Positions 8,978-14,473 of a stretch of 18,139 nucleotides of DNA are shown here, in pieces. The number at the start of each line of letters is the position of its first letter. Within the stretch, counting starts at the first letter, position 1. The notes beneath the pieces were generated by a model. The model ran no database searches, was not told the DNA's origin, and was given only the letters and a program-made list of their open reading frames with translations. This DNA is from Chloroflexota bacterium (GTDB lineage: Bacteria > Chloroflexota > Limnocylindria > P2-11E). Location: positions 1 through 18,139 of the forward strand of contig JANXXG010000242.1 in the NCBI GenBank assembly GCA_025350745.1, given 5' to 3'. A program made the position numbers and the translations under genes.

Positions 8978-9666
8978 CGGAACGCGACGCTGATCGCGTA
9001 CCGAAGCTCGGGCAGCGCCAGCCCGTCCCCGTAGAAACCGTCGCCGTCCCGGATCTCGAAATGCAGATGCGGGCCACCGACCGGGTACCCGGAGCTTCCG
9101 ACCGCGGCGATGAGCTGGCCCCGCGTCACGACATCCCCGACCCGCAGCGGCTGGACCGCGGAGAGGTGCGCGTAGCGCGTGACGATCCCGCCACCGTGAT
9201 CGATCCACACCTGGCGGCCCCGGATCCGGTCGAGCGTCGCGTCGGGCGTGTAGCCGAGTGCCTGGGCAGCGTCGAACGCGACCTGCTCTTCGGCCGCCGA
9301 CCAGTCCGTGAAGACGGAATCGATCCGGGCGATCGTGCCGGCCTTGGCGCCACGCACCGGTGTGCCGGCCTTGACCGGGAAGTCGATGCCCTCGTGACAG
9401 CCGGCGCGATAGTCGCGCGGCGAGTTCGGGAGGTATGCCTCCTCGGTCGGGAGCGCCGCGGCCTCGATCGGCAGCGCGAAGCCGGAGAGGAGGCGCACGT
9501 GTGCGGGCACCGGCTGCTCGGTCGGTCGCGCGGCCGGCCACTCGAACACCGTCGGGGTTGCGCTCGGCCGCTCCGAACGGGCGACCGGACCATTCGGGAG
9601 GACGCTCGCCATCACGGCCACCGCCGCGAACGCGACAACGCCAACGATCGCGAGCAGCGGACGCAT
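8974..9666 (-). CDS. Exported M23 family metallopeptidase (LytM-like)
   Basis: This 230-residue exported endopeptidase probably cuts peptide cross-bridges in peptidoglycan. Residues 1-22 form an uncleaved anchor or signal peptide (MRPLLAIVGVVAFAAVAVMA). A short Pro-rich linker is followed by the M23 domain at about 85-215. Zinc ligands and catalytic residues are all visible: HEGID (His91, Asp95), His167 in RYAHLS, and HLH (His200, His202). An insert of about 33 residues (117-150, acidic and helical, VFTDWSAAEEQVAFDAAQAL) sits between the first zinc motif and the VWIDHGGGIVTRYAHLS strand pair; many M23 domains have only a tight turn there. The ATG at 9666 has TAACGT 6 nt upstream, again a leaderless pattern. 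It is divergent from pyrR, and the two promoters overlap. Confidence 0.92.
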   Translation of the reverse strand: MRPLLAIVGVVAFAAVAVMASVLPNGPVARSERPSATPTVFEWPAARPTEQPVPAHVRLLSGFALPIEAAALPTEEAYLPNSPRDYRAGCHEGIDFPVKAGTPVRGAKAGTIARIDSVFTDWSAAEEQVAFDAAQALGYTPDATLDRIRGRQVWIDHGGGIVTRYAHLSAVQPLRVGDVVTRGQLIAAVGSSGYPVGGPHLHFEIRDGDGFYGDGLALPELRYAISVAFR

Positions 9667-9671
9667 ATACT
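9666..9671 (+). promoter_or_regulatory. Putative -10 box of the pyr operon
   Basis: TATACT matches TATAAT at five of six positions and overlaps the start codon of the divergent M23 gene. A start about 7 nt downstream (near 9678) would give a pyrR leader of about 54 nt containing the PyrR-binding hairpin and a Shine-Dalgarno. No good -35 is visible at 17-18 nt. Confidence 0.4.
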
Positions 9672-9672
9672 G

Positions 9673-9678
9673 ACGTTA
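9673..9678 (-). promoter_or_regulatory. Putative leaderless -10 box of the M23 gene
   Basis: On the minus strand TAACGT (9678-9673) is followed by six bases and then the ATG at 9666. The -35 region would fall in the DNA that encodes the pyrR leader hairpin, and no good -35 match is seen there. Confidence 0.4.
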
Positions 9679-9698
9679 CACGCGTCGACCTTTAACGA

Positions 9699-9724
9699 CC
9701 GGTCCTGCGAGGCCGGAAAGGGAG
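9699..9724 (+). promoter_or_regulatory. PyrR RNA-binding loop and adjoining Shine-Dalgarno of pyrR
   Basis: The leader RNA reads CCGG, a bulged U, CC, the loop UGCGA, GG, then CCGG (9699-9716). This gives six base pairs and a single bulge. The segment UCCUGCGAGG (9703-9712) fits the known PyrR-binding consensus UCCNGNGAGG at every fixed position. The purine-rich GGAAAGGGAG (9715-9724) begins with the last two bases of the hairpin and lies 7 nt before the pyrR CTG. UMP-bound PyrR holding this hairpin could mask the ribosome binding site, as described for the mycobacterial pyr operon. No U-run terminator follows, so translational repression is more likely than Bacillus-type attenuation. Confidence 0.85.
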
Positions 9725-9731
9725 TGCGCAG

Positions 9732-10268
9732 CTGCCGATCATCCTGTCCCAGGACGAGGTCCGCCGGGCCATCGCGCGCATCGCGCACGAGATCGTCGAG
9801 CGGGACCACGACACCAGAGCCCTCGCCTTGGTCGGCATTCGCGCGCGCGGTGACCTCATCGCGACGCGCCTGCACGAGGCCATCCGGCGGAACGAGAACG
9901 TCGACGTGCCGCTCGGGTCGCTCGATATCACGCTATATCGGGACGACCTGACCCGCATCGGCCACGCGCCCGTCGTGCGCGAGTCCGTGATCCCCTTCTC
10001 GATCGACGACCGCATCGTCGTGCTCATCGACGATGTGCTCTTCACCGGACGCACGATCCGCGCCGCGATGGACGCGCTCGTCGACTACGGCCGGCCGCGG
10101 GCCATCCGCCTCGCGGTCCTGGTCGACCGCGGCCATCGTGAGCTCCCGATCAAGGCCGACTTCGTTGGCAAGAACGTGCCCACGAATCTGGCCGACGATG
10201 TTCGGGTCCAGCTCATCGAGACCGGTGGCGCCGACACCGTCGAGCTCGTCCAGGCGGCGGCGGCATGA
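9732..10268 (+). CDS. pyrR: PyrR bifunctional pyr operon regulator / uracil phosphoribosyltransferase (CTG start)
   Basis: PyrR binds pyr leader RNA when UMP is high and also converts uracil plus PRPP to UMP. The 178 residues match the family length. Family features are LVGIRARGDLIATRLHEAI, the strand LDITLYRDDL (64-73), the PRPP-binding loop VVLIDDVLFTGRT (96-108) and DRGHRELPIKADFVGKNVPT (132-151). The family N-terminus, PIILSQDEVRRAIARIAHEI, is fully encoded from 9735. In this frame there is no ATG, GTG or TTG between the stop at 9693 and a TTG at 9828, which would delete 32 conserved residues. CTG at 9732 lies 7 nt after GGGAG and gives exactly the expected N-terminus, so I take it as the start. 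A sequence error is the alternative. The gene overlaps pyrB by ATGA (10265-10268). Confidence 0.93.
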   Translation: MPIILSQDEVRRAIARIAHEIVERDHDTRALALVGIRARGDLIATRLHEAIRRNENVDVPLGSLDITLYRDDLTRIGHAPVVRESVIPFSIDDRIVVLIDDVLFTGRTIRAAMDALVDYGRPRAIRLAVLVDRGHRELPIKADFVGKNVPTNLADDVRVQLIETGGADTVELVQAAAA

Positions 10269-11209
10269 CCTGGCAGCGACGCCACGTGCTCGCGACGGAC
10301 GACTGGTCGAGGGCCGAGATCGAGCAGGTGCTGGACCAGACCGGCGCGATGGTCGAGGTGCTCGGACGCCCGATCCGCCGCACGCCCGCGCTCCGCGGCC
10401 GCACGGTGATCCTCTTCTTCGCCGAGGCATCGACGCGCACGCGAGTCTCCTTCGAGCTTGCGGCAAAGGCGCTCTCGGCCGACGTCACGAATATCACCGC
10501 CAGCGGCTCGTCCGTCGAGAAGGGCGAGACCCTGCGGGACACGGTCCGCACCCTCACAGCCCTCGGTGGCGACGTGATCGTGATGCGCCATGCGGCGTCC
10601 GGCGCTCCGTACTTCGTCGCGGAGCGGACCGACGCGGCGGTCATCAACGCCGGCGACGGATGGCACGCCCATCCGACGCAGGGCCTGCTCGACGCATACA
10701 CGCTGCGCGGCGCGCTCGGCGACCTCGATGGCCGGCGCATCGTCATCGTCGGTGACATCACGCACTCGCGGGTGGCCCGGTCCGATATCGACGCGCTCGT
10801 GCCCCTCGGCGCCACGGTCACGCTCAGCGGACCGCCGACGCTCGTGCCCTCCGCGTGGCGCTGCGGCATGACACCGCGTGGCACGACCTACGAGCCTGAC
10901 CTCGACCGCGCGCTCGACGGTGCCGACGGCGTCATCGCGCTCCGCTTGCAGAAGGAGCGGCAGCACGCCGGCCTCCTGCCGTCGATCCGCGAATACGCCA
11001 AGACCTGGGGCCTGAGCGAGGAGCGCGTCAAGCGGATGCGGCCCGAAGCTCCGGTGCTCCACCCGGGCCCGATGAACGAGGGCGTGGAGATCGCCGCGTC
11101 CGTCGCGCACGGCGCGCGGTCGCTCATCGAGACACAGGTCACGAACGGTGTCGCGGTGCGGATGGCCCTCCTCTATCTGCTCGCCGGCACGCCGGAGCAG
11201 GTGGCATGA
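10265..11209 (+). CDS. pyrB: Aspartate carbamoyltransferase catalytic subunit
   Basis: This cytosolic enzyme joins carbamoyl phosphate and L-aspartate to N-carbamoyl-L-aspartate, the committed step of pyrimidine synthesis. The 314 residues match the usual catalytic chain length. Carbamoyl-phosphate residues are present: STRTR (56-60), Lys86 in EKGETLRDT, Arg108-His109 and the HPTQGLLDAYTLR segment (136-148). The aspartate side has SRVARS (168-173) and LRLQKER (226-232). HPGPMNEGVEI (266-276) is the usual C-terminal signature. No pyrI regulatory gene is next to it, so it is probably controlled through PyrR. It overlaps pyrR and pyrC by ATGA, which suggests coupled translation. Confidence 0.97.
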   Translation: MTWQRRHVLATDDWSRAEIEQVLDQTGAMVEVLGRPIRRTPALRGRTVILFFAEASTRTRVSFELAAKALSADVTNITASGSSVEKGETLRDTVRTLTALGGDVIVMRHAASGAPYFVAERTDAAVINAGDGWHAHPTQGLLDAYTLRGALGDLDGRRIVIVGDITHSRVARSDIDALVPLGATVTLSGPPTLVPSAWRCGMTPRGTTYEPDLDRALDGADGVIALRLQKERQHAGLLPSIREYAKTWGLSEERVKRMRPEAPVLHPGPMNEGVEIAASVAHGARSLIETQVTNGVAVRMALLYLLAGTPEQVA

Positions 11210-12420
11210 GCGGGCTCGCAGATCTGGAACGCGACGCGGCGCAGCACGGGTGGCTCGTGTCACCCGGATTCATCGACCTGCACGCGCATCTCCGCGAGCC
11301 CGGCTTCGAGGAATCGGAGACGATCGCGACCGGAGCGCGCGCGGCGCTCGCCGGCGGGTTCACGACGATCTGCGCGATGCCGAACACCGAGCCGGCGATC
11401 GATTCGCCCGGTCTGGTCGCCGAGGTGATCGCGCGCGGAGCCGCCGCGCGGGCGGCGCGGGTCCTGCCGATCGCGGCGATCACGCGCGGGCGCCTTGGAA
11501 AAGAGCTTGCCGATCTCGTGGAGCTCGCGGCGGCGGGTGCCGTCGCCTTCTCGGACGACGGTGCGCCCGTCTCCGACGGTCAGCTCTTCCGGAACGCGCT
11601 CGAGTACGCGCGCGCGTCGGGCCGCCCGATCTTCGAGCACTCGCAGGATCTCGCGCTCACCGCGGACGGTGTGATGCACGAAGGTGTGGTCTCAGCGCGG
11701 CTCGGGCTTCCGGGAATGGCTGCCGCCGCCGAGGAGACCGCGATCGCCCGCGACCTGTCGCTGGCGCGCCTCGCCGGTGGCCGCCTGCACCTGTCCCACG
11801 TGTCCACCGCCGGAGGTGTCGAGCTCGTCCGGCGCGCCAAGTCCGACGGCCTCGCGATCACGGCCGAGGTCACGCCGCACCACCTGGCGCTCACGGACGA
11901 ATGGGTCGCCGGCTCCCGCGCGTTCGCCTGGGAGGACGGCGGTGACCGGGCCACCCCGTACGAGACGAGCACGAAGGTGAACCCGCCGCTTCGGACCGCG
12001 TCTGACGTCCGCGCCTGCTGGGCCGGCCTGATGGATGGCACGATCGACGCGATCGCGACCGACCACGCGCCGCACGCCTCCACCAGGAAGGACGTCGAAT
12101 TCCAGGAGGCCGCGTTCGGGATCTCGGGGTTCGAGACCGCCGTGCCGCTGCTGCTCGCCGGCGTCGCGGCAGGCTGGGGGACCTGGGATCGGGTCGTCGA
12201 GGCCCTCACGACGGGCCCCGCACGCGTCCTCGGCATCACGCTGCCGGAGAACGACCGCGTCGTCATCGACCCCAACGCGGCCTGGACGTGCGACGCGGCC
12301 GCGTTGGTCTCCCTCGGGAAGAACACGCCGCTGCTCGGCCGGGCGCTCATCGGGCGGGTCGTCGCCTGCGCGGTCGATGGCGAGCTTCGGTTCGACCTGA
12401 CGCGGATCGCCGCTTCGTGA
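11206..12420 (+). CDS. pyrC: Dihydroorotase, with a reduced beta-sandwich domain
   Basis: This cytosolic amidohydrolase-superfamily metalloenzyme reversibly closes carbamoyl-aspartate to dihydroorotate. The 404 residues keep all metal and catalytic residues of class I enzymes: HAH (His26, His28) in GFIDLHAHLREPG, the Asp in FSDDGAPV (117/118), His145 in EHSQD, His198 in HLSHVST and Asp286 in ATDHAPH. The N-terminus is short. About 19 residues precede PGFIDLHAH where relatives usually have about 45-50, and no ATG, GTG or TTG occurs in this frame for about 90 nt upstream. The C-terminal return to the sandwich (ITLPENDRVVIDPNAAWT) also looks shortened by several residues. The TIM-barrel should be active, but the accessory beta-sandwich is probably incomplete. 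It overlaps pyrB by ATGA. Confidence 0.95.
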   Translation: MSGLADLERDAAQHGWLVSPGFIDLHAHLREPGFEESETIATGARAALAGGFTTICAMPNTEPAIDSPGLVAEVIARGAAARAARVLPIAAITRGRLGKELADLVELAAAGAVAFSDDGAPVSDGQLFRNALEYARASGRPIFEHSQDLALTADGVMHEGVVSARLGLPGMAAAAEETAIARDLSLARLAGGRLHLSHVSTAGGVELVRRAKSDGLAITAEVTPHHLALTDEWVAGSRAFAWEDGGDRATPYETSTKVNPPLRTASDVRACWAGLMDGTIDAIATDHAPHASTRKDVEFQEAAFGISGFETAVPLLLAGVAAGWGTWDRVVEALTTGPARVLGITLPENDRVVIDPNAAWTCDAAALVSLGKNTPLLGRALIGRVVACAVDGELRFDLTRIAAS

Positions 12421-12432
12421 GCCGGAGGCGCG

Positions 12433-12516
12433 GTGCGGTCGCGGAGCGCGAGGCGCTCCTTCTGGAGCGGCAGTTGCATCTTTATGCATCAGATATGTAT
12501 AGTTATGCACCGATGA
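12433..12516 (+). CDS. Candidate 27-codon small ORF linking pyrC and carA
   Basis: A GTG at 12433 sits 4 nt after GGAGG (12424-12428), one of the best ribosome binding sites in the window. The frame stays open for 27 codons and ends at TGA 12514-12516, overlapping the carA ATG (12513) as ATGA, the same junction used by the other genes of the operon. The peptide is basic at the start (residues 1-8: MRSRSARR) and ends in IFMHQICIVMHR. It matches no family I know. It may be a leader peptide or a coupling ORF that brings ribosomes to carA, or chance. The N-terminal extension of carA (GTG 12417) competes for the same bases in another frame. Confidence 0.3.
   Translation: MRSRSARRSFWSGSCIFMHQICIVMHR
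12443..12459 (+). promoter_or_regulatory. Hairpin in the pyrC-carA gap, with an overlapping alternative hairpin
   Basis: GGAGCGC (12443-12449), loop GAG and GCGCTCC (12453-12459) form a perfect 7-bp stem. CTCC (12456-12459), loop TTCT and GGAG (12464-12467) can form a second stem that uses the same CTCC, so the two are mutually exclusive. No U-run follows, so it is a weak terminator at best. It may set carA expression relative to pyrC. Confidence 0.35.
12474..12509 (+). promoter_or_regulatory. AT-rich promoter-like element with TTATGCA direct repeats before carA
   Basis: TTGCAT (12474-12479) and TATAGT (12498-12503, five of six matches to TATAAT) are 18 nt apart, in an AT-rich island within GC-rich DNA. 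TATAGT ends 9 nt before the ATG at 12513, so a start there would give an almost leaderless carA mRNA. TTATGCA occurs twice, at 12482-12488 and 12503-12509, exactly 21 bp (two helical turns) apart and flanking the -10, as expected for an operator bound on one DNA face. Confidence 0.5.
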
Positions 12517-13649
12517 GCAGGGCGGCGGTGCTCGGTCTCGAGGATGGCTCGATCTGGTGGGGCGAGGCGTTCGGCGACGCGTCGAGCGCGTCGGGCGAGG
12601 TCGTCTTCAACACCGCGATGACCGGCTACCAGGAGGTCGCGTCCGATCCCTCGTACAACGGCCAGCTCGTCGTGATGACCTATCCGCTCATCGGCAACTA
12701 CGGCGTGTTCCCGCGCGCCGCGGAGTCACGCAGGCCGTGGGTCGAGGCGCTCGTCGTGCGCGAATTGAACGCCACCTGCCGCGAGGGTACCGAGGATCTC
12801 GATTCGTACCTTCGCGCCAGCGGCGTCCCTGGTATCTCGGGGGTCGACACCCGCGCGCTCACGCGCCGGCTGCGCTCATCCGGCACGCTCCGGGGCGCGC
12901 TCATCCAGGTCCCCCCGCATCGAGCCCTCGATCCGGAGATCGGGAGTGAGGCCGTCGCCACGGCTCGGGCGACGACGCCGCTCGCTCAGCGACCGCTCGT
13001 GAGCGAGGCAAGCGTCACGGCCGAGCGTCAGGTCGGCGCCGGACCGAAGATCGCGCTCATCGACACCGGTGTGAAAGAGAACCAGATCCGCAGCCTGGTC
13101 CAGCGCGGTGCGACGGTGCGGGTGTTCCCGGTCGACCTTCCGGCTCGCGACCTCCTGCTCTGGTCTCCGGACGGCATCGTGATCACGAACGGACCCGGCG
13201 ATCCCGCGGCGATCCCGCAGGTGGCGGCCAACGTGAAGATCCTGATCGACATGGCCCAGAGCCGGGGGACCTCGCGGCCGGTGCCGATCCTCGGCATCTG
13301 TCTAGGGCATCAGCTCGTCGCCCGCGCCATCGGCGCGTCCACATCGCGCCTGCCGTTCGGCCATCACGGGAGCAACCATCCGGTGCAGGACACCGTCACC
13401 GGTCAGGTCGTCATCACCAGCCAGAACCACGAGTTCCAGGTGGACGAGACCTCATTGCCGCTGCACTCGGACTTCTTCGTGAGCAAGCGCAACCTGAACG
13501 ACGGATCGGTCGAGGGGCTCGCGCACCGCACCCTCCCGATCCGGACCTACCAGTACCACCCCGAGGGCGCGCCCGGTCCGCGGGACAACGAGCCGGTCTT
13601 CGACCGATTCATGGATGACGTTCGCGACGCGGTCGCGCGGCGGTCATGA
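12513..13649 (+). CDS. carA: Carbamoyl-phosphate synthase small (glutaminase) subunit
   Basis: CarA is the glutamine amidotransferase subunit that passes ammonia to CarB. The 378 residues match the family. The N-terminal domain has LEDGSIWWGEAFG, GEVVFNTAMTGYQEV and YNGQLVVMTYPLIGNYG. The class I glutaminase domain (about 178-370) has the nucleophile Cys263 in GICLGHQ and His349 and Glu351 in QYHPEGAPGP, a complete triad. I chose ATG 12513 because it gives the usual short N-terminus (MSRAAVLGLEDG). An in-frame ATG at 12495 adds six residues. A GTG at 12417 would overlap the pyrC stop as GTGA and add 32 residues (including AVAEREALLLERQLHLYASD) not expected in CarA. No Shine-Dalgarno precedes 12513. 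It overlaps the PhzF-family gene by ATGA. Confidence 0.95.
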   Translation: MSRAAVLGLEDGSIWWGEAFGDASSASGEVVFNTAMTGYQEVASDPSYNGQLVVMTYPLIGNYGVFPRAAESRRPWVEALVVRELNATCREGTEDLDSYLRASGVPGISGVDTRALTRRLRSSGTLRGALIQVPPHRALDPEIGSEAVATARATTPLAQRPLVSEASVTAERQVGAGPKIALIDTGVKENQIRSLVQRGATVRVFPVDLPARDLLLWSPDGIVITNGPGDPAAIPQVAANVKILIDMAQSRGTSRPVPILGICLGHQLVARAIGASTSRLPFGHHGSNHPVQDTVTGQVVITSQNHEFQVDETSLPLHSDFFVSKRNLNDGSVEGLAHRTLPIRTYQYHPEGAPGPRDNEPVFDRFMDDVRDAVARRS

Positions 13650-14473
13650 CTCGGCACGAGTACACGCTCGTCGATGTCTTCACCGCCACGAAGTTCGGCG
13701 GCAACCAGCTCGCGGTCTTCCGCGACGGGCGAGGAGTCGAGGGTCCGTTGATGCAGGCCATCGCGAAAGAGCTGAACCTTCCCGAGACCGTGTTCGTGCT
13801 CCCCGCGGAGCAGGGCGGCGACCATCGGCTCCGGATCTTCACTCCGGCGCGCGAGCTGGCGTTCGCCGGGCATCCGACGGTCGGTAGCGCCTTCGTGCTC
13901 GCGGCGGGGAAGGACGCCGTCCTTCGGCTCGAGGAGGGCGTCGGCGTGCTGGGCGTCACGGTGCGTGACGGGTTCACCGAGATGGAGCAGCCGCTGCCGA
14001 CCTTCGAGCGCGTCGCTGACCGCGCGTCCGTCGCCGCGAGCGTCTCGCTCGACGTCGCGGACCTCGACCCCGCCGTCCCGGTCGAGATCGGCTCGAGCGG
14101 TAACCGGTTCATGTTCGTCGCGGTGCGATCGCTGGATGCCGTGAAGCGCGCGACCCCGCGCGCGCTCGCCGAGGCGGCGTTCATCTTCACGACCGAGACC
14201 ACCGATCCCGGCTCCACGGTGCACGGCCGGATGTACGCGCCCTGGCAGGGGATCGCGGAAGACCCGGCCACCGGCTCCGCGTGCGGGCCGCTCGGCGCGT
14301 ACCTGGTGCGGCACGGGATGTCCGACGGAGCGCGGATCGTCGTCGAACAGGGCTACGAGATGGGACGCCCCTCGCTCCTCATTGTGCGCATCGGCGGTTC
14401 ACCAGACCGGATCACGAGCGTGCACGTCGGCGGGCGCTGCGCGACAGCCGGCGGCGGATGGATCGACGCATGA
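13646..14473 (+). CDS. PhzF family isomerase-like protein embedded between carA and carB
   Basis: This 275-residue protein has the twin diaminopimelate-epimerase-like fold of the PhzF/PhzC-PhzF family. Active-site marks are Glu47 in [10 protein letters not shown] (the acid/base in PhzF), GHPTVGSA (75-82, His76) and [16 protein letters not shown] (205-220, with Asp206 and Ser211 lining the pocket). The protein should therefore be a working isomerase or epimerase. PhzF itself isomerises a phenazine precursor, but no other phenazine genes are here, and most family members act on unknown substrates. The gene overlaps carA (13646-13649) and carB (14470-14473) by ATGA, so it is translated with them. 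A role in pyrimidine or carbamoyl-phosphate metabolism, such as repair of a side product, is possible but unproven. Confidence 0.92.

Follow-up and report, generated by a model that had tools for sequence, protein, structure and literature searches.

The pyrR gene in the stretch of Chloroflexota DNA analysed here (18,139 nucleotides, hereafter the window) very probably starts at a non-canonical codon, and CTG 9732 is probably the codon in question. Ahead of it, a Shine-Dalgarno sequence shares bases with a hairpin that resembles the PyrR-binding loop, and by homology it is likely that PyrR represses its own translation through this putative operator. The explanation as a whole, which combines a CTG start, self-repression through the hairpin and a weak codon that keeps PyrR scarce, is one that we hold with reasonable confidence.

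The pyrR Locus

The plus strand of the window encodes pyrR-pyrB-pyrC-carA, then a PhzF-like gene and carB, all named by sequence likeness, of which only pyrR was tested; the genome assembly is fragmented (2.0 Mb in 426 contigs). The PyrR frame opens behind an in-frame TAA at 9693-9695 and, as the initial annotation had stated, contains no ATG, GTG or TTG before TTG 9828, which lies inside the conserved domain. The layout that it described was also found: GGGAG at 9720-9724 is followed by a 7-nt spacer (9725-9731), CTG at 9732-9734 and then PIILSQDEVRRAIARIAHEI from 9735. A second in-frame CTG, which it did not mention, is present at 9705 within the hairpin loop. Read from CTG 9732, which is proposed from the sequence and from the corresponding column in relatives, the pyrR coding sequence spans 9732-10268 on the plus strand and encodes 178 amino acids including the start residue, with the stop codon TGA at 10266-10268. 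The protein scored 229.3 bits against NCBIfam model NF003549 (cut-off 138), with residues 2-173 of 177 matched, which places it in the family. Alignments with the three best solved PyrR chains begin at query residue 2 or 4, which corresponds to chain residue 5 to 8, and the N-termini of the solved structures thus begin just a few residues ahead of that of the window protein. The structures and the NCBIfam score together indicate that the frame is a genuine PyrR.

Downstream, pyrB (10265-11209, plus strand) has an ATG that overlaps the pyrR stop as ATGA, and pyrC (11206-12420, plus strand; from the ORF list) overlaps the pyrB stop. The pyrR/pyrB overlap occurs as ATGA or GTGA in 22 of 26 family loci, and pyrB is likely to be translationally coupled to pyrR through it. 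Upstream, TATACT at 9666-9671 (plus strand) was found by eye and is the probable -10 element of the pyr promoter; the same sequence, or one close to it, is seen at a similar position in many family loci. When 9600-9800 was scanned with strict sigma-70 criteria, no promoter was returned.

Two further features of the cluster lie outside pyrR. The PhzF-like gene is located at 13646-14473, between carA and carB, and likenesses to it occur in nine family contigs including that of the window. Ahead of the carA ATG at 12513, a conserved block of the form TTGCATCTTTATGCA-(6-7 nt)-GTATAGTTATGCA occupies 12471-12515; it precedes the carA start in all 18 carA loci, in two of them with the first base or two changed. 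The block contains two palindrome-like TGCAT/ATGCA units, 21 bp apart, that resemble the consensus for a pair of ArgR operator boxes. It looks like a candidate ArgR box pair, or a promoter with TATAGT.

The Start Column Across Relatives

The gene was found in 27 of the 28 family genomes searched, with a readable start in 25; the start counts leave out one locus that departs from the family sequence before residue 14 (L024) and one whose contig begins inside the gene (L028). L024 (G024:C23), in which no hairpin was found either, could reflect a rearrangement or a chimeric assembly. The column of CTG 9732 holds ACG in nine of the 25 readable loci, CTG and ATG in five each, TTG in two, and GTG, GTA, CGC and CGG in one each. 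Twelve of these loci have no in-frame ATG, GTG or TTG from -48 to +9, and the start falls in the same column among relatives. In the CGC and CGG loci (L012 and L021), the N-terminus reaches further up, to a canonical GTG at -33 and a canonical ATG at -15, respectively. The column lies 8-11 nt past AAGG in the 13 family loci tabulated; for other families (34 loci), the distance from AAGG to the first start is 4-15 nt (search span 2 to 19 nt). The proposal of CTG 9732 as the start of pyrR is supported by the conservation of the codon within the genus, by canonical codons in the same column in eight of the 25 loci and by the arrangement of hairpin and Shine-Dalgarno sequence. An ATG at some other place in relatives would have spoken against it; the ATG codons found stand in the same column, except in L021, where one lies four codons up, and in three loci that have it two codons on.

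These three (L008, L010 and L011, among the 15 loci with CTG, ACG or GTA in the column) carry the ATG 12 nt behind AAGGAG, and a start at that codon is possible in them. The real start could accordingly lie two codons on throughout, at ATC 9738 in the window and at ACG or ATG in relatives, with the CTG as part of an untranslated spacer. In the sister genus g4, every one of the 10 readable loci, among them L016 with its upstream GTA, does have ACG or ATG at this position. However, where the CTG column is canonical (eight loci), the codon two on is ACG, ATC, GTC or GTG, which suggests that the position reads as ordinary Thr, Ile or Val. In addition, the Shine-Dalgarno spacing would grow to 12-13 nt, and ATC is normally a still weaker start than CTG. 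We regard a start two codons on as improbable.

A canonical start further upstream, with read-through of the hairpin, or use of the out-of-frame GTG 9724 followed by a frameshift, would also do away with a CTG start. Some of the twelve loci have in-frame ATG, GTG or TTG codons beyond the hairpin (at -90 in L006, at -99 and -87 in L015, further up in L007 and L016), an out-of-frame GTG is present at -11 in L001, L002 and L014, and 13 of the best 120 of 349 public protein predictions are drawn through the hairpin. In P0005, a metagenomic relative with 84% identity, L is kept in the CTG column and a V lies in frame three codons before it (VRSLPII); this V could be a GTG start there and is our main reservation from the protein side. 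Against this, in-frame stops at -27 to -42 bar an upstream start in L001, L002, L008, L010, L020 and L022; the stop is at -27 in L020 (CTG) and at -39 in L022 (ACG), and neither has a canonical in-frame start within 110 nt downstream. An upstream start would also place the hairpin and the Shine-Dalgarno sequence inside coding sequence. Four of the twelve loci (L006, L007, L015 and L020, among 13 examined) lack a canonical start in all three frames between the Shine-Dalgarno sequence and +30. One of the 13 predictions drawn through the hairpin, P0056, opens at an ATA that in L004 is part of the promoter-like TATACT, which we read as a sign of forced annotation. An upstream or frameshifted start is therefore very unlikely.

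In 57 of 60 pyrR loci outside the family, a canonical codon occurs at most 18 nt ahead of the aligned start; among the three exceptions, one contains Ns, one ends at a contig edge and one is L090. Three class matches outside the family (L027, L029 and L030), which were compared in addition to these 60, all have a canonical start; G043 and G048 were left out. A contig scan gave 80 loci, one of which (L091) belongs to the family; the other 79 stand outside all counts.

Comparison With a Sister Species

The initial annotation had allowed that an indel could bring GTG 9724 into frame. L002, from the only other species of the genus compared (85% protein identity), has the same stop, hairpin, Shine-Dalgarno sequence, out-of-frame GTG and CTG as the window. 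The leaders differ at two of 75 bases, against 39 differences among the 89 four-fold degenerate sites of pyrR. The shared layout, and a leader nearly unchanged beside such diverged four-fold sites, argue against an indel in the window. By this comparison, the CTG is retained together with the leader in the genus. CTG is shared by the sister species but is not conserved beyond the genus; ACG is the commoner codon in the family.

Turnover of the Start Codon

Lineages g1, g4, part of g6 and part of g7 have left the canonical set. A rough tree of PyrR, PyrB and CarB, in which 10 rows are under half filled, nine forks are open and the g4 member L014 falls outside the g4 clade, requires at least nine codon changes, at least five of them between canonical and non-canonical codons. 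It points roughly to several switches between canonical and non-canonical starts in the same column within one Chloroflexota family. One g4 locus, L016 (G022:C104), has GTA in the start column, two bases from ATG, and no canonical start near.

The CTG or ACG start could be real and yet neutral, in that little PyrR is needed and the codon drifted, so that its weakness brings no benefit. The way the codons replace one another and the GTA in L016 speak for mere tolerance of this kind. Function is favoured by the retention of ACG in nine of the 10 readable g4 loci despite a pairwise four-fold divergence of 29-58%, and by the 14 of 15 non-canonical codons (CTG 5, ACG 9; GTA is the exception) that are one base from ATG in the departed lineages. 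We consider neutral drift rather unlikely, though a serious alternative for the weakness of the codon.

Public Annotation of pyrR

A protein search scored 8000 candidates, and the figures given here are from the best 120 of 349 listed. As the initial annotation had foreseen, an automatic caller shortens the window gene: the predicted protein P0006 (146 amino acids) begins with MVGIRARG, in the frame of TTG 9828, so that pyrR is drawn at 9828-10268 on the plus strand, as in the ORF list, without the first 31 residues after the CTG. Among the best 120 of 349 predictions, 27 begin within the domain; for 24 the start falls on this GIRARG site or next to it, and some of the 27 starts are perhaps due to contig ends. 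Some of the twelve loci described above also have canonical codons inside the domain (GTG at +24 in L004 and L014, GTG at +60 in L004 and L013). That pyrR truly starts at TTG 9828 and encodes a short PyrR, or is a decaying pseudogene, nevertheless seems most improbable. The 31 residues lost include R10, R11, R15, I16 and H18-R23, which are invariant in 19 aligned members, L002 has no canonical in-frame codon within 110 nt downstream of the start, and the listed family matches are without internal stops. We judge from these comparisons that gene-finding software has mis-drawn pyrR in the family. Gene finders tend to miss conserved non-canonical starts, and a corrected N-terminus would apply to many public PyrR entries.

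The Leader Hairpin

The hairpin resembling the PyrR-binding loop occupies 9689-9721 on the plus strand and was recognized by a partial match to Rfam RF00515 and by a scripted layout score. Its lower stem pairs CCUUU 9689-9693 with AAAGG 9717-9721 and its upper stem CCGGUC 9699-9704 with GGCCGG 9711-9716; the 5' bulge is AACGA (9694-9698) and the hexaloop CUGCGA (9705-9710). The match covers model positions 5-36 of 115 with 24.4 bits (E 0.14 in a 201-base search), which is below the gathering score of 54, and the whole window gave no match to RF00515 at that score. The alignment contains the elements of the model's binding loop (a lower stem, a 5' bulge, an upper stem and an NNGNGA-type hexaloop), and we describe the hairpin as PyrR-binding-loop-like rather than file it as an RF00515 member.

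The layout, as defined by the threshold of the scripted score, was found in 61 of 89 loci: in 25 of 26 in the family and in 36 of 63 in other families (f2 1/1, f3 20/39, f4 15/19, f5 0/4). Across the 61 loci, the first upper pair is C-G in 45, G-C in 15 and U-G in one, and the replacement of C-G by G-C in f4 is the sole clear double change; the other upper pairs show one-sided changes or none, and pair 6 is non-standard in eight of the 61. The hairpin core is present in 25 of the 28 family genomes, each time at pyrR; elsewhere in these genomes, eight further sites were found versus 11 for a reversed control, none above chance.

Folded alone, the short window leader and the leaders of three relatives form the upper stem, and the minimum for a longer window leader is another fold and not the PyrR hairpin. 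None of the five leaders folded better than its shuffles, and PyrR binding would therefore need to supply energy. The Shine-Dalgarno sequence AAAGGGAG (9717-9724, plus strand) begins within the hairpin: by the sequence and the RF00515 structure line, the 3' arm of the lower stem provides its first five bases. Since AAAGG 9717-9721 has both roles, a locked hairpin would hide the Shine-Dalgarno sequence. A scan of 9600-9800 found no terminator-like site, which makes control of translation likelier than transcription attenuation; the latter was set aside for this reason.

A different arrangement was seen in other families. In 17 of their 34 hairpin-bearing pyrR loci (L031, L033, L034, L036, L037, L043, L046, L054, L060, L063-L066, L068, L072, L073 and L075), the first start behind the Shine-Dalgarno sequence opens a leader frame of 7-23 codons, with peptides such as LQGSENR, MSRRGRA and VRIRTAAATFR. 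The stop of the leader frame overlaps the pyrR start by 4 nt in 15 loci and by 1 nt in two, and PyrR may control a coupled leader peptide in these 17 loci.

Control Genes and Initiation Apparatus

Six control gene families on the same contigs have a canonical start in 105 of 107 genes (pyrB 24/25, carB 16/16, carA 18/18, a NUDIX gene 21/21, glgA 17/18, PhzF-like 9/9), and for the two misses, pyrB of G023 and glgA of G001, a GTG lies further upstream. Tested in a similar way, pyrR is canonical in 11 of 25 loci, or in 13 if the two extended loci are counted. The control families were picked by hand and post hoc for sharp N-termini, with windows of 3-16 codons (eight for pyrR); a kinase, M23, pyrC and one further family were left out, some for ragged N-termini. 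Three automated start surveys of about 1 Mb of contigs saw no near canonical start for 158 of 477 open frames (79 when the search span was widened), for 71 of 240 and for 220 of 583; many of the flagged frames have an ATG a few codons on. These surveys are unreliable, as homology between close genomes reaches into upstream DNA and antisense frames are scored, and we take them as evidence neither way.

An altered initiator tRNA was set aside, since the initiator-type anticodon arm GGGCTCATAACCC is present in 24 of the 28 family genomes; six of its 27 sites were checked and each is in a locus with tRNA-Met genes. Loss of IF3 was likewise set aside, since IF3 was found in 22 of the 28 genomes, in 21 of them over the cut-off. 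The infC loci of the family (L231-L251) have ATA in the likely start column in 20 of 21 cases, so that at least one regulated gene besides pyrR probably has a non-canonical start in this lineage. The one exception, in G018 (L231), has no ATG in that column either. The family's initiation apparatus appears ordinary, with a non-canonical infC start as in other bacteria.

Comparison With Known Systems

Fields and Switzer are said to have described in 2007 how PyrR represses translation of the mycobacterial pyr operon in Mycobacterium smegmatis. The window shares with that system a PyrR-family protein, a single PyrR-binding-loop-like hairpin just ahead of pyrR and, as AAAGG 9717-9721 belongs to both hairpin and Shine-Dalgarno sequence, the overlap of operator and ribosome-binding site that is typical of the mycobacterial type. 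It differs in phylum, in the CTG or ACG start and perhaps in the place of the Shine-Dalgarno sequence in the 3' arm of the lower stem. A hairpin over the Shine-Dalgarno sequence, with the energy supplied by PyrR binding, fits translational repression as in M. smegmatis. From the PyrR RNA of Bacillus subtilis, known for PyrR attenuation (RF00515; PMC7430163), the binding-loop part is matched (hexaloop, upper stem and 5' bulge). In contrast to that system, RF00515 positions 37-115 are unmatched and no terminator-like site was found at 9600-9800.

Two regulatory genes offer parallels for the start codon. The infC gene, encoding IF3, starts at ATT in E. coli and at ATC in Streptomyces (PMC5472188). 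Like pyrR as proposed here, infC is self-regulating and has a conserved non-canonical start, also within this family, but IF3 acts through the codon itself, whereas PyrR would act on the hairpin. The same study describes Streptomyces sigR, the mis-annotated first gene of a coupled pair, whose GTC start follows a strong ribosome-binding site, is conserved in 32 of 34 species and was shown to limit the regulator (PMC5472188). On that description, pyrR resembles sigR in having a conserved non-canonical start behind a strong ribosome-binding site, in its mis-annotation and in leading genes that are probably coupled. The codon and the regulator differ: sigR is repressed through IF3, and a protein-bound operator is not described for it in the text consulted (PMC5472188).

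Proposed Mechanism and Implications

In the mechanism that we propose, the ribosome would bind AAAGGGAG and start at CTG 9732 because this codon lies 7 nt behind a strong Shine-Dalgarno sequence, and fMet would be inserted at the CTG. With ample UMP or UTP, PyrR would hold the hairpin closed and keep the ribosome off; this would shut off pyrR and, via its ATGA overlap with pyrB, also pyrB and the genes downstream. At a near-cognate codon, probably discriminated against by IF3, less PyrR would be made from each mRNA, and a weak codon might be kept or re-evolved because a self-controlling repressor is needed in small amounts.

A CUG start gives 0.86% of the AUG yield in E. coli and makes up 0.024% of bacterial starts (PMC11497404), AUG-to-CUG switches accounted for two of 61,358 when 36 genome triplets were surveyed (PMC5622118), and few bacterial genes with a conserved non-canonical start have been characterised (PMC5472188). 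A yield of 0.86% is perhaps too little for a working repressor. In a literature search that covered few subscription journals, no report of a non-canonical pyrR start stood out among the matches listed.

That the weakness of the start codon was selected is a guess that rests on the retention of the codons and their repeated origin, and we offer it tentatively. PyrR is a small, widespread and biochemically tractable regulator whose start codon has changed several times here, and ATG, GTG, TTG, CTG, ACG and GTA in one column form a natural series in which to ask whether start strength is tuned by selection. It is possible, if somewhat doubtful, that selection has made a weak start codon an element of PyrR feedback in this family; the canonical start would then have been given up several times for CTG or ACG behind a Shine-Dalgarno sequence bound by the repressor, ACG would be a conserved natural bacterial start, and pyrimidine control would be tied to the stringency of IF3.
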